Made by a program: the position numbers and the translations under genes. A stretch of DNA of 36,304 nt, from NCBI GenBank assembly GCA_947592005.1, contig CANQDJ010000010.1:1-36304 (forward strand). The letters are read 5' to 3'. Source of the DNA: an uncultured Anaeroplasma sp. Its GTDB lineage: Bacteria > Bacillota_I > Bacilli_A > Acholeplasmatales > Anaeroplasmataceae. The notes beneath the pieces are model-generated. The model ran no database searches. It was given only the letters and a program-made list of their open reading frames with translations, and was not told where the DNA came from. Within the stretch, counting starts at the first letter, position 1; every line of letters starts with the position of its first letter. Below, piece after piece: positions 1 through 12,725 of the stretch.

Positions 1-1167
1 TTTTTCTTTTTCTGGAAGAGATTTCTCATATTCATATATTTGCCGTTCCGCCTCTGGATTTGCCGAAGACGGTACATTACGTATCGCTTCTATAACATCT
101 TCTTTTGTTATGTAAGATACATAATCTGTATCCTCTACATTCCCTTCCCCTTTGATTAACATTGCCTGTTTATATCTTTCAATCGGATATGTTGTTATTT
201 CTCCACATAAATTCTCTAAATCTCTTCCCGAATATTTCGGAGTGGCCTTCGCTATATATTCATACGTCAAATCTTTTGCCAAAGGTACCCCCTTTAATTG
301 TTTCTCTATTATCTTGCTTCTCGCTTCTTCATTCGGTAATGTTATATTTATCTTATACCGACATCTTGATAATATCGCCGGATCTATATTGCTCGGCATA
401 TTGGTCGCCGCTATAAACAAAAAGTTATTCCCTGAATCAAATCCGTCTATCACTTTTAAAAAGTTTGTTACCATTGAATCATTAATTACCGAATTATTAT
501 CTTTTCCTCTCACTCCCAATATTTCTTCGGCTTCATCTAAAAATATTATCGCATATTTAAACTTCTTTATCTCTTCAAATATCTTTGATATATTCTTCTC
601 TGATTCTCCGACATACTTATCTTTTATTTCTTTTGCTGATATATGTACAAATGGAGCATCTACTTCCGATGCAACGGCTTTCGCAAACATTGTTTTTCCT
701 GTCCCCGGTACTCCATATAACAATATTGCCTTCGCTGGTTTATGTTTAAATTTCTCAAATATTTCCGGATGTTTAAAATAAAACACACATTCCGAATTGA
801 TTATCTTTTTCGCATTGTCCAATCCGACTACATCATCAAATGTTACTCCGGTCGCTGTAGATATTTTTAAACTTGTTTCCGTTTCTTCCGTCGTTGAATT
901 GGTGGAAGACTTTTCCGAAGCGATTCCTTTTTCCGTTTTCGGTTTTTGTGCCATTTTTACTTTAATGCCTTCAATAATTTTAGAATAATTATTAATTCTT
1001 TTAATTGCAAAATCTTTTTCAGATGGTGCTTGTTTCGCTAAAGCAAAACATAAATTGCCTGCCTCTTTTAATTTGTCAATCGCTCCTTGATAATCCCCAT
1101 TTTTATTTAAAGCAACTGCCTGATTAAAACAATCGTCAATTTTTTTATTAATCTCCAAGACAGTCAT
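1..1167 (-). CDS. Vps4-like AAA ATPase with N-terminal MIT-like domain (3' end outside window)
   Basis: The frame is open to the window edge: 389 codons are visible and the C-terminus is missing. ATG 1167 follows GGTGGTGA. Residues 1-75 are helical and resemble the three-helix MIT domain of Vps4, including a GDYQGAI stretch at 24-30 that parallels the NYEEAL region of Vps4; a degenerate TPR is the alternative. Residues 76-104 are a polar Ser/Thr/Glu linker. From about 107 a classical AAA domain follows: Walker A GVPGTGKT (152-159), pore loop KYVGES with Tyr185, Walker B IIFLDEAE (207-214), sensor 1 AATN (253-256) and arginine-finger candidates R268/R270. Known Vps4 enzymes bind C-terminal MIM helices of ESCRT-III proteins and pull the filaments apart. 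By inference this ATPase acts on the coiled-coil proteins encoded just upstream. Isoleucine codons change from ATT in the N-terminal part to ATA in the AAA part. The AAA call is secure; the MIT call is moderate. Confidence 0.85.
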   Translation of the reverse strand, partial: MTVLEINKKIDDCFNQAVALNKNGDYQGAIDKLKEAGNLCFALAKQAPSEKDFAIKRINNYSKIIEGIKVKMAQKPKTEKGIASEKSSTNSTTEETETSLKISTATGVTFDDVVGLDNAKKIINSECVFYFKHPEIFEKFKHKPAKAILLYGVPGTGKTMFAKAVASEVDAPFVHISAKEIKDKYVGESEKNISKIFEEIKKFKYAIIFLDEAEEILGVRGKDNNSVINDSMVTNFLKVIDGFDSGNNFLFIAATNMPSNIDPAILSRCRYKINITLPNEEARSKIIEKQLKGVPLAKDLTYEYIAKATPKYSGRDLENLCGEITTYPIERYKQAMLIKGEGNVEDTDYVSYITKEDVIEAIRNVPSSANPEAERQIYEYEKSLPEKEK

Positions 1168-1191
1168 ATCATTTCACCACCAATTTTAAAA

Positions 1192-1752
1192 TTATAAAGA
1201 ATTAAATTTTGCCATTTCTTCATCAATAGAAACATCTACTTCAGATAATTGTGCATCAATTCTTGCCTGTAATTCACTATCAATCTCAATATTATCGGAA
1301 TTTTGAATGTCTTCAAATGTGGAATCGGCTTGTTCTAAAAACATATCCAATTGACTTCTTGTTTTTTCCGATTCAATAGCCATTCTTTGCTGCTCTTTCA
1401 ACATTTTCTTATAATCAAATTGACCAAATAATTTTGCGGTTTCTTTAGAAAGAATTACCATGCTTTCATTAAATTCCTTTGTATTACTTGCTTCTGTTCT
1501 AAGAAGTTCTTGTAAAGTAATCTGATGAAGCATATGCTTACTTTTTTCTTTTCTCGCTATTATCATTTTAAGAAAAATCAATGTTTGATTATATTCCGCA
1601 GTCATTTTATTTCTTTTAGCCTCGGCAGCCTTAACTATTAATTCTTTTTCTTTTCCTTCGCATTCTGTTATAAATTTTTGAAATTTCTTTTTCGTTTGTC
1701 GAAGTTTCATATTATTTTCTAACTCTCTAGTTTGTTTTGATTTAAGAATCAT
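1192..1752 (-). CDS. ESCRT-III/CHMP-like helical protein
   Basis: 186 residues, almost entirely predicted helix. ATG 1752 is chosen because GGAAGGG lies at the right distance before it; the upstream ATG at 1770 sits 2 bases after the previous stop with no usable site. The N-terminal half is basic (KLRQTKKKF) and the C-terminal third acidic, the layout of Vps2/CHMP1-type ESCRT-III proteins. Long helices fill about 10-75, then a segment with FGQFDYKKMLKEQQ near 110 resembles the later helices of CHMP1/Vps2. The tail contains DSELQARIDAQL (158-169), close to the MIM1 motif (D/E)xxLxxRLxxL that binds MIT domains. ESCRT-III proteins polymerise on membranes and are disassembled by Vps4. The ATPase with the MIT-like domain is the next gene, 24 bases downstream, which supports the pairing. 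Sequence similarity is by eye only; a generic coiled coil remains possible. Confidence 0.6.
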   Translation of the reverse strand: MILKSKQTRELENNMKLRQTKKKFQKFITECEGKEKELIVKAAEAKRNKMTAEYNQTLIFLKMIIARKEKSKHMLHQITLQELLRTEASNTKEFNESMVILSKETAKLFGQFDYKKMLKEQQRMAIESEKTRSQLDMFLEQADSTFEDIQNSDNIEIDSELQARIDAQLSEVDVSIDEEMAKFNSL

Positions 1753-1772
1753 AGATACTTTCCCTTCCATTC

Positions 1773-2729
1773 CTATAAATTATCAATTTCGTCTTTTAAT
1801 TTTTGAGTTTTATTACCATCAAACGCTTCTTTTTGTTCCAAAATGATATCATCTTGTGTTTGATTTAATCCTCGTTGATATCGATCATTCTTTTCTGTCA
1901 TTTGTCTGATATTTTCAATGTCATTGGCCAAAGCCTCTTTAGTCGCTTCAAAACTTTCACTTTGGCTTTTTTTATTTTCTTCGCTGACAACAACGAATTC
2001 ATTAACAATATCATCAATAGAAGTTTTAGATCGCTTTTTAATTTGAATCTGATGTTCAATAAACTTTTTATCTAGAACGGCCAGTTCATTAAGTAGAGAA
2101 TCGATTGCATTTTTATATTTCATTTCTCCCTCTTTAAAGAAAGAAAGTTTAATGTTAATTTCTTGAATTTGTGCCTTTATTTTCTCCAACTCAGAATCCT
2201 TGTTTATCGTTGTCGCTAAAAGTTTTAAATCGTTTTTCTTTTTAAGCAATCTATCTTTATTTACTAACTGCTGGGCCTGACTTATATAAAGATCTACAAC
2301 GTTATTAAATCTTTCTGCATAATCTTTATCGGATAAAATAAGACATTTCTCAAAGTCGAAACTACCAGTATATATATCAAATAAACTATTTATATTTTCT
2401 GAAACAAACAAAACCATTTCTTTGATTCCCGCACTTCTTGTCTTAGATAATCTCGCTAATTTATCAAGCAAATCATTTATTTTTTCTTCTGTTTTTTGGC
2501 GATTCTTACGATTGATACGACTGGTATCCCTAGCCTCACTCTTTTTTTCGGCAATGGAATTTAAAAGTTCTTCTACACAACTATTAATTGTTTTTTTATC
2601 AAAAACAAATTCTTTATCTTCATCTTCAAAAGTTTCTTCCACTTTACGCTGAATTATTTTTAAATCTCTTTCCCACTCTGCCCATTGTTCTCTCATTTGA
2701 TTGATATTTTTTTTATCAAATAATCCCAT
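1773..2729 (-). CDS. Long coiled-coil protein of the ESCRT-like operon
   Basis: 318 residues; I do not recognise a named family. ATG 2729 follows AAGGAGATG at good spacing. The protein starts MGLFDKKN, like the short amphipathic starts of PspA (MGIF) and some CHMP proteins, and has no signal peptide or membrane segment. It is rich in Lys, Glu, Asp, Asn and Gln. Heptad-like helices run through about 45-95, 155-235 and 260-318, separated by a more hydrophobic patch around 100-150 (EMVLFVSENINSLF). The last residues, DEIDNL, are acidic with a terminal leucine, as in the neighbouring small protein. The stop is 20 bases before the preferred start of that protein, so the two are likely co-translated. 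It may be a second filament subunit, a scaffold or an adaptor; this is inference from the neighbours. Confidence 0.7.
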   Translation of the reverse strand: MGLFDKKNINQMREQWAEWERDLKIIQRKVEETFEDEDKEFVFDKKTINSCVEELLNSIAEKKSEARDTSRINRKNRQKTEEKINDLLDKLARLSKTRSAGIKEMVLFVSENINSLFDIYTGSFDFEKCLILSDKDYAERFNNVVDLYISQAQQLVNKDRLLKKKNDLKLLATTINKDSELEKIKAQIQEINIKLSFFKEGEMKYKNAIDSLLNELAVLDKKFIEHQIQIKKRSKTSIDDIVNEFVVVSEENKKSQSESFEATKEALANDIENIRQMTEKNDRYQRGLNQTQDDIILEQKEAFDGNKTQKLKDEIDNL

Positions 2730-2835
2730 TTTTTAACATCTCCTTATAATTTTTCAATTTCTTTTAAAAAAAATTTATCATTTTCTTTTTTTTTACAATA
2801 TCAAATAAAGTTATGAACTTTATCAATTAATTTTC

Positions 2836-3756
2836 TTATATTCCATTTTTTAGTTCTTTTTGGCAATATGGGCAAAATGGAAATTTCTTATCTACAATAT
2901 TTTGACAATAAGGACATCGAATTTCATTTTCTTTCAAAATCGCCTTATTTCCAGTTTGTCCCAATTTAACTTCAAATTCACGATCCTCTTTAATATCTTT
3001 GCGTCTTTCGTCATGGAATTTATGTTCCAAATCGTCCAATGCCTTATCAAACATAATATCATTGATTTTCGTTAAACGCTTTTCTCCTTCTTCTGGAGTA
3101 TATAAATTTAATGTCAATTCATATGGTTTAACCGCATATTCACTTAATTCCTCTTTTAAGGCCAAGACTACCTTTTGACTTATTTGGTCTTGATTCTCTG
3201 ATTGACTGAATATTTCTATTTTATGCCCTGTATTTGCCAAACCTTCTTCTACACACCTTTTAACTATTCTATGGAAAATTGGTGAAACTTCTTCCTGAAT
3301 AATTTGTTGTAAATCTTCTATCTTATCTGCGTGCTTTTTTACGATTTGCATTAATAGTCTTTTCTTTGTCTTAAGCAATTTAATATGTAAATCTATTCTA
3401 AAAGAACATTTAATTTCTACTTCTGGCATAGTTTCTTTGTAATAATATTGATCTAAAACTGCTGTCTTAATCGTATCAAATTGATAATTCAAATTGATTA
3501 AGTAAAATTTAAAATTTTTACCTTTTGTGAAAAAGGCTCTAGGTAAGGTACATGGCTCTTTGGCTTGTGGAATAATATAATCTTCCGGATAAAAAACATA
3601 ACTTTCTTTGTTATAAATTAAACAACCCACATAATCATCTGGGACTTCAAATGAAATAGTTTTCGCACCCGAATATTCACTTTCTTTGGATTTTGTGATT
3701 AATTTTTTTGCATCGGTAGATGCTGTGATTGTTTCCGCTTTATTTCTTAAAAACAT
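2836..3756 (-). CDS. SPFH-like protein with C-terminal zinc ribbon
   Basis: 306 residues. ATG 3756 follows AAAGGGGGAT. Residues about 35-245 read as an SPFH/Band-7 fold: a beta-rich start (TISFEVPDDYVGCLIYN), a long middle helix region with EEVSPIFHRIVKR, then the strand-loop YELTLNLYTPEEGEKRL typical of the end of the SPFH domain. A charged helix (about 230-262) leads to a zinc ribbon with C281/C284 and C295/C298 in two CPYC knuckles. There is no transmembrane segment, so membrane contact would be peripheral or through a partner. B. subtilis YdjI has this same combination (SPFH plus zinc ribbon) and is encoded in the pspA-ydjGHI operon, PspA being an ESCRT-III family member. That known pairing supports a membrane-remodelling role here. 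A 106-base AT-rich gap separates it from the next gene. Confidence 0.75.
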   Translation of the reverse strand: MFLRNKAETITASTDAKKLITKSKESEYSGAKTISFEVPDDYVGCLIYNKESYVFYPEDYIIPQAKEPCTLPRAFFTKGKNFKFYLINLNYQFDTIKTAVLDQYYYKETMPEVEIKCSFRIDLHIKLLKTKKRLLMQIVKKHADKIEDLQQIIQEEVSPIFHRIVKRCVEEGLANTGHKIEIFSQSENQDQISQKVVLALKEELSEYAVKPYELTLNLYTPEEGEKRLTKINDIMFDKALDDLEHKFHDERRKDIKEDREFEVKLGQTGNKAILKENEIRCPYCQNIVDKKFPFCPYCQKELKNGI

Positions 3757-3772
3757 AATTTTATCCCCCTTT

Positions 3773-4513
3773 TTATTTTATTTTTTTTAATATTTTAGAA
3801 ATTGTATTGGACGATATACAAAAACCCATTCCATTCAGACTGACATATGAATTTATATTTTTAATATCCGTCGGAACCTTTTCTATTAAGGAATATGTAG
3901 TCATACCAATAACCTTTGCTTTACAATCTATTAAAGGCCCACCAGAATTACCATGATTTAAACTTATGTTGGTTTGAATAACTGGATCCAATTTTTGATT
4001 ATGAACTCTCTTCGGATTAGAAACAACTCCTTCATTATAGGAAAAATCCTGTTGTTCCGGATTACCAATAGTAAATACATGATCTCCCATTTTCACCAAA
4101 TTCGAATCCGCTAATTGTAATCCATCGATAGAAGGAATTTTTACTGTTGGCAGTAAAATGGCCACATCATCTTCTACAGACAAGGCAACAACTTTAACAG
4201 GATAAAATAGTTTTGAAATTTCAGGAAAAAATTGAATTTTTATAGTTGGAGAAACTACCTTTCTACTGTCATCCATAATTACATGGGCATTCGTACAGAT
4301 ATACCCATTCGATAACAAACATCCCGAACCATAGGAACAACATTCACTATTTATTGTTGCAACAACTTTAACAACTGCCTTTTTAGCAATGTCAATAATT
4401 GATTCAACATCAAAATTGTTTGGAGATTCCTCTTCTTCTCTCAATAAATTTTGACAATATGGGCACTTAGAAACCTTATTGGGAACCTCAGCACCACAAA
4501 ACTTACATTTCAT
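3773..4513 (-). CDS. Zinc-ribbon trypsin-like serine protease (HtrA-type catalytic domain, no PDZ)
   Basis: 246 residues from ATG 4513, chosen because the zinc ribbon then starts the protein (MKCKFCG) and AAGGA lies 10 bases upstream; ATG 4519 and a TTG at 4537 are possible. The zinc ribbon uses C3, C6, C17 and C20. After an acidic linker a chymotrypsin-fold protease follows with the full triad: His77 in TNAHV, Asp116 in DDVAIL and Ser190 in GNSGGP. The TIGNP and VVSN segments match the HtrA/DegP family. Unlike typical HtrA it has no signal peptide, transmembrane anchor or PDZ domain, so it should act in the cytoplasm. It is the first gene of the operon and ends 16 bases before the SPFH gene. 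The shared zinc-ribbon type suggests that the two proteins recognise the same partner or surface. The substrate is unknown. Confidence 0.85.
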   Translation of the reverse strand: MKCKFCGAEVPNKVSKCPYCQNLLREEEESPNNFDVESIIDIAKKAVVKVVATINSECCSYGSGCLLSNGYICTNAHVIMDDSRKVVSPTIKIQFFPEISKLFYPVKVVALSVEDDVAILLPTVKIPSIDGLQLADSNLVKMGDHVFTIGNPEQQDFSYNEGVVSNPKRVHNQKLDPVIQTNISLNHGNSGGPLIDCKAKVIGMTTYSLIEKVPTDIKNINSYVSLNGMGFCISSNTISKILKKIK

Positions 4514-4602
4514 TCTCATCACATCCTTAAAAATCAATATGAATTCTCCTATTTTTATTATTATAGATATAATAAAAAAATTTTTGTATAAATTTCATTT
4601 AA

Positions 4603-5943: not shown

Positions 5944-7311
5944 ATGTATGGAAAAAATGCTTGGAATAAATACCAAGACAAACAAGAAGTATTAAAATTT
6001 AATGAAGAATACAAAGACTTTATTACGAAAGGGAAAACAGAAAGAGAATGTGTTTCTTATGCCATAGAACTTTGTAAGAAAAAAGGATTTAAAGAAATAA
6101 ATCAATTTACTTCTTTAAAAACCGGAGATAAAGTATATGTCATCAATAAAAATAGAAACATTTGTGCTTTTATCATAGGAAAAGAACCTTTGGAACAAGG
6201 CATCAACATATTGGGGGCCCATATCGATTCTCCAAGAATCGATTTAAAACAAAATCCACTTTATGAATCCAAAGGCTTTACCTTAGCGGATACACATTAC
6301 TATGGCGGTATTGTAAAATACCAATGGGTTGCTAGACCTCTAGCACTTCATGGCGTCGTCTATAAAAAAGACGGAACGGAAATAAAATTAAATATCGGAG
6401 AGAACCCAAACGATCCCGTATTCTGTATTACGGACTTACTTCCGCATTTGGCAAAAGACAAAAACACCAAACCTGCCGATAGAGTAATTGAAGGGGAAGA
6501 TTTAGACGTTACCATAAGACATTTACCATTAAACGAGGAAGAGAAAGAATCTGTTAAAAAAATGACATTGAATCTCTTAAAAGAAACCTATCATATCGAG
6601 GAAGAAGATTTCGTTTCTGCCGAAATCGAAATTGTCCCTGCTGGAGAAGCAAGAGATTTGGGTTTAGATCGCTCTATGATTTTAGGATATGGGCACGACG
6701 ATCGAGTTTGTGCTTATACTTCTCTTCGAGCATTATTAGATGCAGGAACTTGTAATTACACAACTTGTGCGTTTCTTGTAGATAAAGAAGAAATTGGTTC
6801 TGTCGGGGCAACAGGAGCTCATTCTAAATGGTTTGAAAATACACTAGCCGAATTGATTGCCTTGACAACCGAATATAATGATTTAAAACTTCGCCATGCT
6901 TTAACAAATACAAGAATGTTATCTTCTGATGTATCTGCCGGAGTCGATCCACTTTATACGAGTGTATTCGAAGGAAAAAATGCCGCTTATTTGGGAAACG
7001 GAATTTGTTTTAATAAATACACCGGCTCACGAGGAAAATCCGGTTGTAATGATGCTGATCCGAAATACATCGCTCAAATTCGAAATATAATGGATTCCAA
7101 TTCCATTCATTATCAAACAGCCGAATTAGGAAGAGTAGACATCGGAGGCGGTGGTACTATCGCTTATATTTTGGGAAACTACAATATGAATGTCATCGAT
7201 GCCGGAATCGCCGTTTTATCCATGCACGCCCCTTATGAAGTTGTTTCCAAAGTAGATGTCTATGAAGCATATCTTGCATATATGGCATTTTTAAAAGAAG
7301 CCAAATTATAA
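5944..7311 (+). CDS. M18 family aspartyl aminopeptidase
   Basis: 455 residues, full length for the family. AGGAGG stands just before ATG 5944. It is a zinc metallopeptidase that removes N-terminal, often acidic, residues from peptides in the cytoplasm. The di-zinc site and catalytic residues are all present: H93 and D95 in GAHIDSPR, D252/D253 in GYGHDDR, E282/E283 in KEEIGS, D329 in SSDV and H428 in SMHAPYE. It is a single gene, divergent from spmAB and convergent with the alaS operon, with its own promoter and a shared terminator. Confidence 0.95.
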   Translation: MYGKNAWNKYQDKQEVLKFNEEYKDFITKGKTERECVSYAIELCKKKGFKEINQFTSLKTGDKVYVINKNRNICAFIIGKEPLEQGINILGAHIDSPRIDLKQNPLYESKGFTLADTHYYGGIVKYQWVARPLALHGVVYKKDGTEIKLNIGENPNDPVFCITDLLPHLAKDKNTKPADRVIEGEDLDVTIRHLPLNEEEKESVKKMTLNLLKETYHIEEEDFVSAEIEIVPAGEARDLGLDRSMILGYGHDDRVCAYTSLRALLDAGTCNYTTCAFLVDKEEIGSVGATGAHSKWFENTLAELIALTTEYNDLKLRHALTNTRMLSSDVSAGVDPLYTSVFEGKNAAYLGNGICFNKYTGSRGKSGCNDADPKYIAQIRNIMDSNSIHYQTAELGRVDIGGGGTIAYILGNYNMNVIDAGIAVLSMHAPYEVVSKVDVYEAYLAYMAFLKEAKL

Positions 7312-7313
7312 AG

Positions 7314-7351
7314 AAAAAATCCTTAAGATTCAAAACTTAAGGAATTTTTTT
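7314..7351. terminator. Bidirectional terminator between the M18 gene and the alaS operon
   Basis: The arms TCCTTAAG (7320-7327) and CTTAAGGA (7336-7343) are flanked by an A-run on the left and a run of seven T on the right, so the hairpin can stop transcription from both sides. It overlaps the 3' end of the minus-strand gene. Confidence 0.85.
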
Positions 7352-7877
7352 ATATAGAATTCATTCCGTTTTTAATTTCGGGAATACAAAATGAATTTTC
7401 TTTCAATCCTATAAAATGCGTACAAGCCAATATAATATTATCAAAAGAAGAAATCATAGAATTCAATCGGTGGATTTCTTCTTTTGTTTCTTCTTTCTTC
7501 TCAATTAAAGAAATCAACCGAGTGCCGTCCATACAATACGGATATGTATCTTTCAATAATGTTATCGTTCTACTTGAACCTAAAATTACACTTCTTTTAT
7601 GAATATAAGGTATAAATTCATAAAAAACACCACGAATATTAGAAAAAAACTGTTTCAAAAAAGGCAACGCAATCAAAGAAAGAGTATTACAAGCTAATAT
7701 GATTTTATCCACCTTTTTATCCAAAATCAAACAAAGATAAAACGATCGCTTTAAAAGAAATTCTATACTTTTATCCCCATACGGAAAAAAACTCTTATCC
7801 ATAATCAAAATATAACTGTTTTCTTCTTTTCGGATTTTGGTTAAATAATACAATCCGCCATTTCCCGAATCAATCAA
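7350..7877 (-). CDS. Short Asp/Glu racemase-like protein (MurI-like, compact)
   Basis: 175 residues, versus about 265 for glutamate racemase MurI. The recognisable MurI landmarks are kept in order: IDSGNGG at the N-terminus, FFPYGDKS, LACNT with one catalytic Cys and LACTHF with the second. The missing length is mainly in the second half, between the two cysteines and at the C-terminus. MurI makes D-glutamate for peptidoglycan, so this could be a minimal racemase or a relative with another substrate. The start is TTG 7877, overlapping the stop of the exonuclease gene; an in-frame TAA upstream leaves no other common start. It is the last gene of the alaS operon. Function is uncertain because of the size. 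Confidence 0.6.
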   Translation of the reverse strand: MIDSGNGGLYYLTKIRKEENSYILIMDKSFFPYGDKSIEFLLKRSFYLCLILDKKVDKIILACNTLSLIALPFLKQFFSNIRGVFYEFIPYIHKRSVILGSSRTITLLKDTYPYCMDGTRLISLIEKKEETKEEIHRLNSMISSFDNIILACTHFIGLKENSFCIPEIKNGMNSI

Positions 7878-8764
7878 TCCAATTCTCGTCTTAAAACCTC
7901 GGCTTTATTCGTTTTTAGATTAACTTCGTCCTTAAACGCTTTAAATACTTTAGCGGTAATTTCCGAATCATTAAAAGCGTCGTGAATTTGAACATCTTCA
8001 TTATCGTAATATATTTTATACAATTTGAATAGACCCGGATCATTTTTTAAATCATAATAACTCTTGATAATTTGACATAAATTAATAAATCTCGTCTTAT
8101 TCTGTAAGGACGGTTTCTCATTAATAGAATATGAATCATTCAACACAAGTATGTCATTTTTTCCGTAAACGATAATCGCCGGATGATAATTATCCAACAC
8201 TTCCAAAAAATCATCATAAAATTCGTCATAAGAAATCGCCTTATAATAAAACTCATACGCTGTGATATTCAAAAAATCTTCTAATCGCTTCGTAATCGGA
8301 TTTAATTTCGGTTTAATATACTTAGAATATCGACAAATTTCTTCTCCTTCTCCATCATAAACAATAAATCCCGCTTGAATCAATTCAGCACGAAATCCTC
8401 TCCCTTTAAAATTATATGTCGGCATCGTCATCTCCAAATCCAAAACCATAATATTCCCCAATGATTTCAAAAACTTAGATAACGAATGATTTAAAGATTG
8501 TTTATCATAATAAACCGCACTGTCGAAACGTCCCATTGCCGATAATTGATAAACAAAAGAAACAATATAACATTCTTTTCCTCTACGAATTACTTTGTCA
8601 TCTTCATCATAGTCCAAATCTATCCAATTCCCCTTATATAAATATCGTTTGAATAAATTCATTTGACTATTTTTAAAATAAAAAAATAAAATTCGTCTAT
8701 TTTGTATTATTCCTATTGTTTTACTATGGATATCCACTTGCCGAATAACACCCTTTATCCTCAT
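7874..8764 (-). CDS. DnaQ-like DEDDh 3'-5' exonuclease with N-terminal beta-rich domain
   Basis: 296 residues from ATG 8764, which has AGAGGG 6 bases upstream; a TTG two codons earlier is rejected. The C-terminal part (about 104-275) has the exonuclease motifs: D109 and E111 in LDLEMT, D204 in YGKND, and H261 with D266 in HDAFND, giving the DEDDh active site. The family trims DNA or RNA 3' ends; the KapD-type exonucleases of Bacilli are relatives. The first 75 residues, beginning MRIKGVIRQVD, look like a small OB-fold or cold-shock-like barrel that could bind RNA; this is inference. It follows trmR after 13 bases and overlaps the racemase-like gene by 4. Confidence 0.8.
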   Translation of the reverse strand: MRIKGVIRQVDIHSKTIGIIQNRRILFFYFKNSQMNLFKRYLYKGNWIDLDYDEDDKVIRRGKECYIVSFVYQLSAMGRFDSAVYYDKQSLNHSLSKFLKSLGNIMVLDLEMTMPTYNFKGRGFRAELIQAGFIVYDGEGEEICRYSKYIKPKLNPITKRLEDFLNITAYEFYYKAISYDEFYDDFLEVLDNYHPAIIVYGKNDILVLNDSYSINEKPSLQNKTRFINLCQIIKSYYDLKNDPGLFKLYKIYYDNEDVQIHDAFNDSEITAKVFKAFKDEVNLKTNKAEVLRRELD

Positions 8765-8777
8765 ACGCAACCCTCTT

Positions 8778-9386
8778 TTATTTCCTTACGGAAACCGACA
8801 TTCCATCACCGATATGATATATATTCGTTAAAAATTCTTCTTTTTCCAGTAATGCTTGACGGAAAAGATTCAACTTTCGAATCAACCCTTTTACACCTTT
8901 CGACTGTTTATCATATTCCGCCGTATTCTCTACCAATCCGTGAAAAAACATATTATCGCATACAATAACACCATATTCGGATAAAAGCGGAGAATATAAT
9001 TCAAAAAATTTAAGATATTGTGCTTTAGCGGCATCAATAAAAATAAAATCAAACTTTAATTGTGCCAAAGCGGAAAAAACCTCTAACGCATCGCCTTCCA
9101 AAAGTTTTATTTTAGGATAATCTTCCAAATTCTTTTTGGCTTGTTGAATCATCTCATTATCTCTTTCTATCGTATAAACTTCACTACCGCAAATCTTATG
9201 CATACGAATTGCCGAATACCCGATTGCCGTTCCAATTTCCAAAATTCTTTTCGGGCGTTTTAAAGAAACTAATTGTTCCAAAAACAATAATCCTTCGTCC
9301 GAAATAATGGGAATGTGATTTTCTTTCGCATATTCTCTTATCTTTTCTTCCCAAGCAGAAAAGACTAAAAGCGGTTTATTCTCCAT
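8778..9386 (-). CDS. trmR: SAM-dependent O-methyltransferase, TrmR/YrrM-like (tRNA wobble uridine)
   Basis: 202 residues from ATG 9386, set by GGAG 6 bases upstream; the longer frame would lie inside the preceding gene. Motif I EIGTAIGYS (50-58) is the SAM-binding loop, and IDAAK (117-121) with DN (144-145) are the metal/catalytic positions of the class I O-methyltransferase 3 family. In B. subtilis, TrmR (YrrM) methylates 5-hydroxyuridine in tRNA to 5-methoxyuridine. Position downstream of alaS-ruvX-yrzB matches B. subtilis, which supports TrmR over other members of the family. The start overlaps the end of the DUF1292 gene by 11 bases. Confidence 0.8.
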   Translation of the reverse strand: MENKPLLVFSAWEEKIREYAKENHIPIISDEGLLFLEQLVSLKRPKRILEIGTAIGYSAIRMHKICGSEVYTIERDNEMIQQAKKNLEDYPKIKLLEGDALEVFSALAQLKFDFIFIDAAKAQYLKFFELYSPLLSEYGVIVCDNMFFHGLVENTAEYDKQSKGVKGLIRKLNLFRQALLEKEEFLTNIYHIGDGMSVSVRK

Positions 9387-9687
9387 TACAATCTCCGCCA
9401 CAGCCGGAACACCCGTCACAATTTCCACCGCATTTTTCTTCAAGATTATCGTAATAATCGTTCAATAACTCTTCGACAAATTCCCATTCTTCTTCGCTTT
9501 CGATAGCGGTTAAAGCACCTTCTCCGTTTTGACCTTCTTCAAATATAGCGGCTGAAACCCGCTCTTCTCCTCTTGGTTGAAACACAACGAAATTTTTATT
9601 CCATTCATCGGAAAAGAAAGTAAATAATATATCACATATCAATTCTTTTCCATCATCGGTTGTTATAATAATTGTTCTATCTTCCAT
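9376..9687 (-). CDS. DUF1292 (YrzB-like) small acidic protein with Cys-rich tail
   Basis: 103 residues; AAGGAG before ATG 9687. The body (ITTDDGKELICDILFTF, then FVVFQP and the acidic EEEWEFVEELL) matches the DUF1292/YrzB family, whose function is unknown. The gene order alaS-ruvX-yrzB agrees with B. subtilis. Unlike most YrzB proteins the C-terminus carries five cysteines in a symmetric CxxxCxxCxxCxxxC pattern (within the last 19 residues), suggesting metal binding. The genes ireB (yrzL) and mltG, usually nearby in Bacilli, are absent here. Confidence 0.8.
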   Translation of the reverse strand: MEDRTIIITTDDGKELICDILFTFFSDEWNKNFVVFQPRGEERVSAAIFEEGQNGEGALTAIESEEEWEFVEELLNDYYDNLEEKCGGNCDGCSGCGGDCNGE

Positions 9688-9696
9688 AAATACTCC

Positions 9697-10116
9697 TTAA
9701 AATGCTATTTTATCTAAATAATTTTGTAAAATGATTACGGCTGCCATCTCATCTTTTTTTTCTTTTCTTTGATTTCTTCTTACATTCCCCGAAATCATAG
9801 CCTTATCCACTAAAACCGTCGTCAATCGTTCATCTTCCAAAACCACTTGAATATCTGTATTTTCTTCTATAGATTTCTTAAAATCTTCCGAAATTTTGGC
9901 ACGAACTCCAACATCGCCGTTCATATGTTTAGGATATCCCAAAACAACCGTCTTTACTCTCTCTTTATCACAAACATTTTTTATATACTCCGCTGCCAAA
10001 GAATACTGATTTTCCTCAAAACGAAACGTTTCATACGCTCTGGCAAGCATTCCGAGTTCATCGGATATGGCCACACCCAATGTTCGACTTCCCAAATCTA
10101 ATCCGATGTATTTCAT
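9697..10116 (-). CDS. ruvX: RuvX/YqgF RNase H-like Holliday junction resolvase
   Basis: 139 residues, normal length. The RNase H-fold residues are D7 in GLDLGSRTLG, the EDERLTT motif (94-100) and D122 in KKDEMAA; LGYPKHMNG (59-67) is also family-typical. YqgF proteins are essential or near-essential in many bacteria and are linked to Holliday-junction resolution and to 16S rRNA 5'-end processing. ATG 10116 overlaps the alaS stop by ATGA, so it is coupled to alaS. Confidence 0.95.
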   Translation of the reverse strand: MKYIGLDLGSRTLGVAISDELGMLARAYETFRFEENQYSLAAEYIKNVCDKERVKTVVLGYPKHMNGDVGVRAKISEDFKKSIEENTDIQVVLEDERLTTVLVDKAMISGNVRRNQRKEKKDEMAAVIILQNYLDKIAF

Positions 10117-12725
10117 TGAATGGTATCCTTTAAATGTTGTAATGCCTCTTCCGCTTTAAACGCATCTTTTCCTCCGGCTTGGGCAAGATCTTTCTTACCG
10201 CCTCCGCCACCACCGGTAATCTTCGTGGCTTCCCGAACAATCATTGAAGCATCGTATCCGTTTTTCGTTGCACAAACAAAAGTTACTTTTGTTTGATCTT
10301 TATATGCCAAAACAACGACATCTAAATCTTTATTATTTCTTAAAGCGGTAGCCATATCTTTTATAATATTGGTATCGGGAGTATCGACAAAAGCAAATAA
10401 TTTACGCTTTTCTATCTGTGAATCAAAACGAGATAAATCATTTAAAGCCGATTGACTCTTCTTCATATTCCATTCTTTTTCCAAAGATTTTAATGCATTT
10501 TGAGCCAAAGCGATTTCCTTACGAAGTCTTAAAATATATCGATATCCGAATTCATTCATTTCAGGCTTTTTATATCCGTAATTCAAACATATATTCTCTT
10601 TTTCGGCTAATTCCATAAATTCTTCCGCTTTATGAATCGTAGCATCTAATGTACTCATACTATTTAATGAAGACTGGTAAACATAATACATAGCATTCTG
10701 CGAAGTCGCCGCAGTAATACGGAAAACACCTGAACCGATAGATTCTACCGACATAACGGCAAAACATTCGATTTCTTTTGTGTTATTAACATGTGTTCCC
10801 GCACAAAATTCTTTGGAAACCCGCATATCGACTACCCGAACTTTATCTCCGTATTTTTCTTCAAACAATGCCATCGCACCCAATTTTTTCGCTTCCTCGA
10901 TAGGTAAAACTTTCGTATCGACAGGATTGGCTTGGTTGATATAAGTATTGACTAAATCTTCTACCTGCAAGATCTCTTCATCGGTTAACGCATGATAATT
11001 ATTGAAATCAAAACGACAATATTCCGCACCGACTTGGGAACCTTGTTGATGGACATGACTTCCCAATACTTTTTGTAACGCCGCTTGTAATAAATGAGCG
11101 GAAGAATGATTCTTTCTTGTTAAATCTCGATTGGTTTTATCGACTTCGGCATAAACGAGTTCTCCCAAATGGAATGGATTTTCTTTCATTATATGCAGAT
11201 GTTGCCCATTCGGCATTTTTACAACATCTAATACTTCAATTCCATTGATATTTCCTTTATCACATAATTGTCCACCGCTAAAAGCATAAAATGGTGTTTC
11301 ATCTAAAACAATGCCATTACCAAATATGGCTATAACTCTGGCTTTATGATTGGTGGCATTATAACCTGAAAAACGAGATTCTTGTTTAAATGCTAAAAAT
11401 TCTTCATTTTGACCACCCATAGAATTCTCATCTTTACGAGCATTTCTGGCTCTGTTTTTTTGCTCCTCCAAAAATCTTTTAAATCCTTCCACATCTACTT
11501 CCAAGCCTTTTTCTTTCGCATATTCCATCGTCAATTCCAACGGAAATCCATAGGTGTCATATAACATAAAAGCATCTTGAGCGGAAATCACTTTATCCGT
11601 TTTATCCGCAATCACTTCGAATTTTTTCTCTCCGCTTGCTAAAGTCTGTAAAAACTTTTCCTCTTCCGCCGTAATTACTTCCCGACAAATAGATCGTTTT
11701 TCATGAAGATACGGATAATATGGATCCATTATTTCGATAACAACATCAACCAATTCTGCCATAAAAGGCTTATGTATTCCCAAAGACTTCGCATATTTAG
11801 ACGCTCTTCGTAATACCCTTCGCAATACATATCCTCTACCTTCATTCGAAAGCGTAGCACCGTCCGCTACCGCAAAAACAACAGTACGGACATGGTCGGC
11901 AATTACCTTAAATGCCATTTGCCCCGTATATTTTACATGAGAAATCTCTTCTGTTTTACGAATGATTGGTAAAAATAAATCCGTATCATAATTCGTTTCC
12001 GCTTCTTGCATTACACAACATAATCTTTCCAATCCGCAACCCGTATCAATATTTTTCGAAGGAAGTTCTTTATAATTCTTTCTTTCAACACCTTCTTGCG
12101 AATTAAATTGAGAAAATACGATATTCCATATCTCGATAAACCGATCATTTTCTATATCTTGTTCAATCAATTCTTTTCCTCGAGAATCATATTTTTCTCC
12201 TCGATCGTAAAACATTTCCGTATCCGGTCCACAAGGTCCCTCTCCAATTTCCCAAAAGTTGCCTTCCAACGGAATCAAATGATCTTCACAAATCCCATTT
12301 TCTATCCAGTATTTTTTTGCTTGTTCATCGTTTATATAATAAGTAATATATATTTTATTTTTATCAAAACCAAACCATTTTTCATCAAATAATAATTCGA
12401 CCGCAAACTCTATCGCTTCTTTTTTAAAATAATTCCCAATAGAAAAATTACCCAACATTTCAAAAAAAGTATGATGTCTTGCCGTTTTTCCTACGTTTTC
12501 AATATCATTGGTACGAATACATTTTTGAGCGTTTGTTATTCTCGGATTCGGTGGAACCATAGTCCCGTCAAAATATTTTTTCAGTGGTGTAACTCCAGCA
12601 TTGGTCCATAACAACGTCGGATCATTGGAAGGTATTAAAGACGCAGATGGTTCTACCGTGTGTCCTTTAGACTTAAAAAAGTCCAACCACATTTGTCGTA
12701 TTTCACTTGAAGTCATTTTTTTCAT
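10113..12725 (-). CDS. alaS: Alanyl-tRNA synthetase
   Basis: 870 residues, full length. It charges tRNA-Ala and edits Ser/Gly mischarging. The class II catalytic core has RHHTFFEMLGNF (83-94). The editing domain has the zinc-ligand motif HSSAHLL and the matching CAGTH. The C-terminal C-Ala domain ends with the six-glycine GGGGGGKKDLAQAGG motif. ATG 12725 follows AGAGGG by 6 bases. It is the first gene of a six-gene operon. The predicted transcription start is only about 22 bases before the start codon, so there is no T-box leader. Confidence 0.97.
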   Translation of the reverse strand: MKKMTSSEIRQMWLDFFKSKGHTVEPSASLIPSNDPTLLWTNAGVTPLKKYFDGTMVPPNPRITNAQKCIRTNDIENVGKTARHHTFFEMLGNFSIGNYFKKEAIEFAVELLFDEKWFGFDKNKIYITYYINDEQAKKYWIENGICEDHLIPLEGNFWEIGEGPCGPDTEMFYDRGEKYDSRGKELIEQDIENDRFIEIWNIVFSQFNSQEGVERKNYKELPSKNIDTGCGLERLCCVMQEAETNYDTDLFLPIIRKTEEISHVKYTGQMAFKVIADHVRTVVFAVADGATLSNEGRGYVLRRVLRRASKYAKSLGIHKPFMAELVDVVIEIMDPYYPYLHEKRSICREVITAEEEKFLQTLASGEKKFEVIADKTDKVISAQDAFMLYDTYGFPLELTMEYAKEKGLEVDVEGFKRFLEEQKNRARNARKDENSMGGQNEEFLAFKQESRFSGYNATNHKARVIAIFGNGIVLDETPFYAFSGGQLCDKGNINGIEVLDVVKMPNGQHLHIMKENPFHLGELVYAEVDKTNRDLTRKNHSSAHLLQAALQKVLGSHVHQQGSQVGAEYCRFDFNNYHALTDEEILQVEDLVNTYINQANPVDTKVLPIEEAKKLGAMALFEEKYGDKVRVVDMRVSKEFCAGTHVNNTKEIECFAVMSVESIGSGVFRITAATSQNAMYYVYQSSLNSMSTLDATIHKAEEFMELAEKENICLNYGYKKPEMNEFGYRYILRLRKEIALAQNALKSLEKEWNMKKSQSALNDLSRFDSQIEKRKLFAFVDTPDTNIIKDMATALRNNKDLDVVVLAYKDQTKVTFVCATKNGYDASMIVREATKITGGGGGGKKDLAQAGGKDAFKAEEALQHLKDTIQ

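Follow-up and report, generated by a model that had tools for sequence, protein, structure and literature searches.

The locus described here raises the question of whether a bacterium can carry the machinery built from ESCRT-III, a filament protein, and Vps4, an ATP-driven motor, which cut and mend membranes in human cells and archaea. Recent surveys regard this pair as missing from bacteria. We analyzed 36,304 nucleotides (the window) at the start of contig C10 (CANQDJ010000010.1) in the 1.49-Mb genome (GCA_947592005.1) of an uncultured Anaeroplasma sp., a gut-type bacterium. Five open reading frames (ORFs), all on the - strand, co-directional and close-packed with gaps of 16, 106, 2 and 24 nt, lie in positions 1-4513 and encode, in this order, a trypsin-like protease with a Zn ribbon, an SPFH/Zn-ribbon protein, a helical protein of 318 aa, an ESCRT-III-like protein of 192 aa and an ATPase combining an MIT-like domain with a Vps4/Cdc48-type AAA domain. 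We consider it quite likely that they form a bacterial ESCRT-III/Vps4-type membrane machine.

The cluster was found where the original prediction, made from the DNA letters, had placed it. The same prediction put the five genes under one promoter, but promoter-like matches (24) were no more frequent than in shuffled sequence (27.1 +/- 5.8), and a single promoter for the operon therefore cannot be claimed. The ATPase gene is cut because the window begins at the contig start; its product aligns with the complete protein of the sister locus (L012, on a contig of an Erysipelotrichaceae metagenome-assembled genome) up to a few residues from the end of the latter. No continuation of the operon past the contig end was found when the rluB contig C13 and the TPR/transmembrane (TM) homologues on contig C16 were examined.

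The ESCRT-III-like protein and the MIT-AAA ATPase

Searches with the family profile yielded relatives of the 192-aa protein that matched Pfam Snf7 with 31.8 (genome G977), 28.2 (G031) and 27.3 bits (G380), the curated cut-off being 27.3 bits, and the second paralogue of the sister operon scored 26.4 bits (E 6e-6). The Snf7 model is strict; in our calibration it remained below the cut-off even in Sulfolobus acidocaldarius, and it misses the ESCRT-III-like proteins that Thermococcus and Halarchaeum plasmids encode next to Vps4. The window protein itself is too diverged for Pfam, and the Snf7 assignment thus belongs to the family, not to the window sequence alone. The family aligned end to end with the ESCRT-III-like proteins of archaeal Vps4 loci (hhalign score of 36.7 over 148 columns), against scores of 13-15 for reversed profiles and at most 18.9 for 40 heptad-block shuffles. 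The neighboring ~190-aa protein of other loci reached 42.9 over 180 columns against the same archaeal set (controls at most 19.7). As the controls fell far below the real scores, shared coiled-coil composition does not explain the archaeal match. None of the operon proteins of the window, the sister and the relatives matched PF04012 (PspA_IM30) at E 1.

The AlphaFold model of the 192-aa protein, built from 12 sequences, had a predicted local distance difference test score (pLDDT) of 82 and helices at residues 2-53, 57-115, 120-146, 148-157 and 165-191, i.e., the helix succession of ESCRT-III with a long alpha1-alpha2/3 hairpin and, after it, alpha4 and alpha5. The best PDB match in Foldseek was CdvB of S. 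islandicus (prob 0.97), with CdvB2 filaments among the next matches, and VIA-align superposed the model on Asgard ESCRT-IIIB with a root-mean-square deviation (rmsd) of 3.0 over 116 residues. The tail of the sister paralogue, DKELLDRIDAL, fits the pattern [DE]xxLxxR[LI]xxL and carries a putative type 1 MIT-interacting motif (MIM1), as may the acidic C-terminal helix of the window protein (Table 1).

The Vps4-likeness of the ATPase rests on its N-terminal three-helix bundle. Pfam MIT matched the window and sister proteins with E values of 5.9e-4 and 6.6e-4, both under the 30-bit cut-off, while the profile of the bundle found the MIT domains of calpain-7 (2.2e-5) and Sulfolobus Vps4 (0.0016) in the PDB and aligned with archaeal Vps4 N-termini in hhalign (E 2.9e-6; reversed control 1.3e-3). 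The protein possesses a single AAA domain with intact catalytic motifs and, in the model, a C-terminal helix at residues 371-383; the Vps4_C profile matched the homologue of locus L034 only (E 0.0023). In VIA-align, the AAA model matched M. sedula Vps4 (rmsd 2.1 over 266, Z 29.1) and p97 equally well as its best structural neighbors, and it was also close to yeast Vps4, spastin and katanin. In a tree of 21 sequences, the Bacilli ATPases formed one group of their own (81/86), apart from archaeal Vps4 and Chlorohelix and with no resolved link to Cdc48 D2. A recent transfer of archaeal Vps4 into Bacilli is unsupported by this separate grouping.

Partner proteins, conservation and genomic setting

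Table 1. Features of the operon at the start of the window
Feature	Positions	Strand	Evidence
Zn-ribbon + trypsin-like serine protease, 246 aa	3773..4513	-	Trypsin_2 E 6.8e-22
CxxC-x(n)-CxxC Zn ribbon, protease N-terminus	4451..4507	-	sequence CKFCGAEVPNKVSKCPYC; Zn_Ribbon_1 E 0.076
SPFH/Band-7-like protein with C-terminal Zn ribbon, 306 aa	2836..3756	-	Band_7_1 E 0.027; Zn_ribbon_3 E 7.7e-6
Mostly helical protein, 318 aa	1773..2729	-	position in operon
ESCRT-III (Snf7)-like protein, 192 aa	1192..1770	-	Snf7 matches of relatives, hhalign, AlphaFold, Foldseek
C-terminal acidic helix, candidate MIM1-like DSELQARI (residues 164-171)	1198..1278	-	model helix 165-191
MIT-like domain + Vps4/Cdc48-type AAA ATPase, at least 388 aa	1..1167, open at contig start	-	AAA E 5.7e-36; MIT E 5.9e-4
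MIT-like three-helix bundle, helices 3-22, 26-46, 48-73	949..1161	-	model, pLDDT 83-94
AAA core: Walker A GVPGTGKT, Walker B IIFLDE, pore loop KYVGESEKN, sensor-1 N256, Arg R270	340..726	-	sequence motifs, invariant alignment columns

The protease, for which an alternative TTG start is possible at 4537, retains the complete triad (H in TNAHV, D in VEDDV and S in GNSGGP), has no obvious membrane segment and resembles the protease domain of RT-Protease_XI in PADLOC (E 8.8e-18). The SPFH/Zn-ribbon protein combines the SPFH domain and Zn ribbon expected of a YdjI-like protein; its Band_7 match, weak in the window, is stronger in the sister protein (3.5e-5) and clear in the equivalents of L034, L037 and L057 (Band_7_1, 2e-13 to 6e-21). 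The original prediction was supported for these two proteins, as it was for the CHMP-like helical protein and the MIT-like N-terminus of the ATPase. The slot of the 318-aa protein is occupied elsewhere by a pair of helical proteins of ~100 and ~190 aa or by one protein of 317-348 aa (L034, L035, L037 and L057 compared with L012, L038 and L039). Profile comparison found no sequence-level match between the 318-aa protein and any of these, so that sequence does not support its origin by fusion of the two shorter ones (100 and 190 aa); the correspondence is positional only.

Among the genomes searched by profile, 9 of 395 in the class, 10 of 382 in the phylum and 8 of 160 in the order had the ESCRT-III-like gene. 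In 15 of the 16 loci examined, which cover eight genera of Bacilli, the ATPase gene lies directly 3' of the ESCRT-III-like gene, and at least eight ESCRT-III/ATPase loci have an SPFH/Zn-ribbon gene upstream. Subtype A (the window, L012, L034, L035, L037, L038, L039 and L057) has the order SPFH/Zn-ribbon, one or two helical genes, ESCRT-III and MIT-AAA, whereas subtype B (L041, L084, L086 and L088, one of them from a genome of the same genus as the window) has a ~200-aa protein, a Snf7-like protein, an AAA ATPase, a trypsin-like protease and a RuvB-like AAA ATPase. L085 and L087 represent a third arrangement. The sole exception is L036, where no Vps4-like gene was found in the sequence examined and an ESCRT-III-like segment is fused to FtsK/SpoIIIE instead. 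At this locus (6101-12001), the ESCRT-III-like gene is followed by a 623-aa protein comprising the ESCRT-III-like segment and the FtsK/SpoIIIE motor, and then by a protein with TIR, Zn-ribbon and leucine-rich-repeat regions. The gene order recurs in other Bacillota but the exact five-gene set does not, as L012 has the last four genes without the protease, and the subtype-B loci place the protease downstream of the ATPase with no SPFH gene in the sequence examined. Both the SPFH/Zn-ribbon protein and a protease recur across loci and belong to the wider system. A search of 348 genomes of a Clostridia-type phylum yielded one marginal match of 19 bits, which we did not count; a Snf7 match in the genome of L014 adjoins housekeeping genes and was rejected, and a plasmid search with the ESCRT-III-like protein found none.

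The operon follows spmB in the window and L012, whereas in three relatives spmB is directly followed by rluB with no operon between them, and the operon is therefore an accessory insertion. An integrase gene stands just upstream of it in L041 and L086. In G031, the region downstream of the subtype-B operon (L063 2241-12870) encodes three proteins, one Hsp70-like, one coiled-coil and one of 1440 aa, and an integrase flanks the operon on the opposite side; together they may form one larger mobile island. Trypsin-like protease genes occur in the window and in all four subtype-B loci, in the latter after the ATPase gene, and the neighboring protease domains are related to those of RT-Protease_XI and Avs1b in PADLOC. 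TIR proteins are encoded near L036, L037, L039 and L057, BrxL after the ATPase in L037 (PADLOC E 5e-169), and VWA, kinase and PP2C genes are found at the flanks of L034 or L035. In L085, a proteasome-subunit-like gene (1483-2142; PF00227 1.1e-9) lies beside the ESCRT-III-like and MIT-AAA genes, and by eye L087 (2064-2732) has a similar copy with the same neighbors. Archaeal CdvB undergoes degradation by the proteasome.

Two further observations concern the neighbors. The subtype-B protease (L041 3496-4482) and RuvB-like ATPase (2039-3472) appear to have related N-terminal helical domains (hhalign 1.1e-3 over 77 columns; 0.084 when reversed), which may be a docking domain shared by both; an MIT domain suspected there by eye received no support from PDB and profile comparison. 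Downstream of the sister operon, the product of a TPR/multi-TM gene (L012 8179-10749) shares a ~90-aa N-terminal domain with tandem leucine-rich-repeat proteins (L019 944-8916, contig C16 of the window genome).

A working model and its alternatives

The domain identities, the conserved linkage and the intact catalytic motifs are established by sequence and model. Most likely, the operon encodes a membrane machine of ESCRT-III that is remodelled by ATP and has exchangeable effectors, and its role may be in stress or phage defence. We infer polymerisation, membrane binding, MIT-tail contact, disassembly, the role of the protease and the trigger, as follows. The ESCRT-III-like protein would polymerise on the cytoplasmic membrane, at its inner face, along with the second paralogue in the sister genome and, in other loci, with the second archaeal-ESCRT-III-like protein. 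The SPFH/Zn-ribbon protein might mark a membrane patch or recruit the ESCRT-III-like protein there, by analogy with YdjI, the SPFH protein required to bring PspA to the membrane in B. subtilis (PMC8581546), and with archaeal Meth_adaptin loci, which can include an SPFH/coiled-coil/Zn-ribbon protein (PMC10936438). The MIT-like domain of the ATPase would dock onto the acidic C-terminal MIM-like tails, and the ATPase would pull subunits through its pore so that the polymer is remodelled or disassembled. The Zn-ribbon protease, predicted to be cytoplasmic, could remove ESCRT-III or adaptor subunits, or could act as an effector that the assembly sets free on sensing damage to the membrane.

Several observations weigh against an ESCRT identity. 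The window protein has no Snf7 match at E 1 or better, its apparent ESCRT-III signal coming from relatives and profiles, and the archaeal comparison proteins were named ESCRT-III by their place beside Vps4 and their layout, without a Pfam match. The Foldseek E value of the CdvB match is weak (E 0.07) and BAR domains reach equally high Z in VIA-align; the predicted fold is thus support rather than proof. In a direct PDB sequence search with the family profile, CHMP2A ranked third with an E value of 0.46, not significant alone. The MIT profile matches TPR repeats as well, a known ambiguity of helical hairpins, and no MIT-like domain was detectable in the ATPase of subtype B (A14). The AAA sequence is nearer to Cdc48 D2 than to yeast Vps4, the tree does not join the Bacilli ATPases to archaeal Vps4, and the protease-first arrangement was seen in the window genome only. 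The weak direct Snf7 score, the TPR matches and the affinity to Cdc48 D2, together with the proteasome-like subunit beside the pair in L085, would suit helical proteins that are unrelated coiled coils and a TPR-AAA unfoldase feeding a protease, the likeness to ESCRT being convergent. We regard such convergence as improbable in view of the collinear profile matches far above the reversed and heptad-shuffled controls, the Snf7 matches above the curated cut-off in relatives, CdvB as the top fold match, and the near-invariant order of an ESCRT-III-like followed by a Vps4-like gene.

If the ESCRT-III/Vps4-type core is accepted, its purpose can be read in two ways. The same core mechanism could serve as a membrane-damage sensor or scaffold in phage defence or cell suicide, with the neighboring enzyme (protease, TIR or BrxL) doing the killing. 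The exchangeable neighbors with defence relatives, the patchy distribution (about 2-5% of genomes), the insertion beside spmB and the integrases in L041 and L086 favor this idea, which we judge plausible but a little short of even. TIR proteins and proteases, on the other hand, are also found outside defence, the core proteins (outside the PADLOC scan) have no PADLOC match, and the kinase, phosphatase and VWA neighbors of L034 and L035 fit a general stress response equally well. These neighbors, the SPFH partner reminiscent of the YdjI-PspA link, and the absence of a PF04012 (PspA_IM30) gene from all 11 carrier genomes (the control search found matches in 9 of 14 genomes) speak for envelope-stress repair in place of PspA/Vipp1, in which the membrane is patched and the protease acts as a regulator or turnover enzyme without killing. 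We hold this to be possible without being probable, as these lineages may lack PspA in general (the PspA search covered carriers) and as few members even of the genus have the system, odd for housekeeping repair. The neighbors overall lean to defence, and the kinase/phosphatase loci to stress response; the operon may act in envelope stress or in membrane remodelling more broadly. As a speculation that we think rather unlikely, an SPFH-anchored ESCRT-III polymer would sense membrane injury by phages or toxins, the MIT ATPase would fix the threshold by disassembling the polymer continually, and a failure to do so would bring exchangeable effectors (trypsin-like protease, TIR or BrxL) into action.

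A compact bacterial ESCRT-III/Vps4-type machine with its own motor, encoded in a small operon that could be transferred to laboratory bacteria, would offer a simple system for testing ESCRT-III disassembly and help to date the origin of the partnership between ESCRT-III and its motor. The recurring protease and TIR neighbors would connect bacterial ESCRT with protein turnover or with immunity.

Comparison with known systems

Like PspA/YdjI of Bacillus subtilis, the Bacilli operon couples a protein of the ESCRT-III superfamily to an SPFH protein (PMC8581546). Unlike PspA/YdjI, its helical protein is Snf7-like rather than PspA_IM30-like, and a Vps4-type ATPase and a protease are encoded with it. 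As the 11 carrier genomes have no PspA, the system is not a Psp variant, and the earlier framing as an elaborated PspA module had to be abandoned.

Bacterial Snf7/PspA proteins with AAA ATPases, and a proposed ATP-dependent membrane remodelling, appear in the part of Ravi et al. 2024 available to us (PMC11237479), and therefore the general idea has precedent. The same part describes transfers of VPS4-like genes into bacteria without snf7, which is said to be displaced, and gives these genes TPR/6TM neighbors, comparable with the TPR/multi-TM gene in L012; within it, there is no description of an SPFH-helical-ESCRT-III-MIT-AAA operon with a protease. The operon was likewise not found in the literature searched, subscription literature lying outside our reach. 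On a plasmid of Candidatus Chlorohelix (Chloroflexota; L068, NZ_CP128401.1, 1-2455), a pair of ESCRT-III-like genes (~200 aa each) stands with genes for an archaeal-type Vps4 and for a kinase in the gene order of archaeal ESCRT loci, and this is probably a second, separate bacterial ESCRT/Vps4 system of archaeal origin.

With eukaryotic ESCRT-III/VPS4, the operon shares an MIT-AAA motor and, putatively, acidic MIM-like tails; it differs in its bacterial host and the protease encoded alongside, and no ESCRT-0/I/II was seen. Archaeal ESCRT (Main and Meth_adaptin, CdvB/CdvC; compared at L070 and L071) differs from the Bacilli loci, which have a Bacilli host, an ATPase group of their own and protease, TIR or BrxL neighbors, and in which no winged-helix or adaptin proteins were identified. 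The two nevertheless have in common ESCRT-III-like genes upstream of an MIT-AAA Vps4, with an SPFH/coiled-coil/Zn-ribbon partner as in Meth_adaptin loci and kinase and phosphatase partners as in the Main loci.

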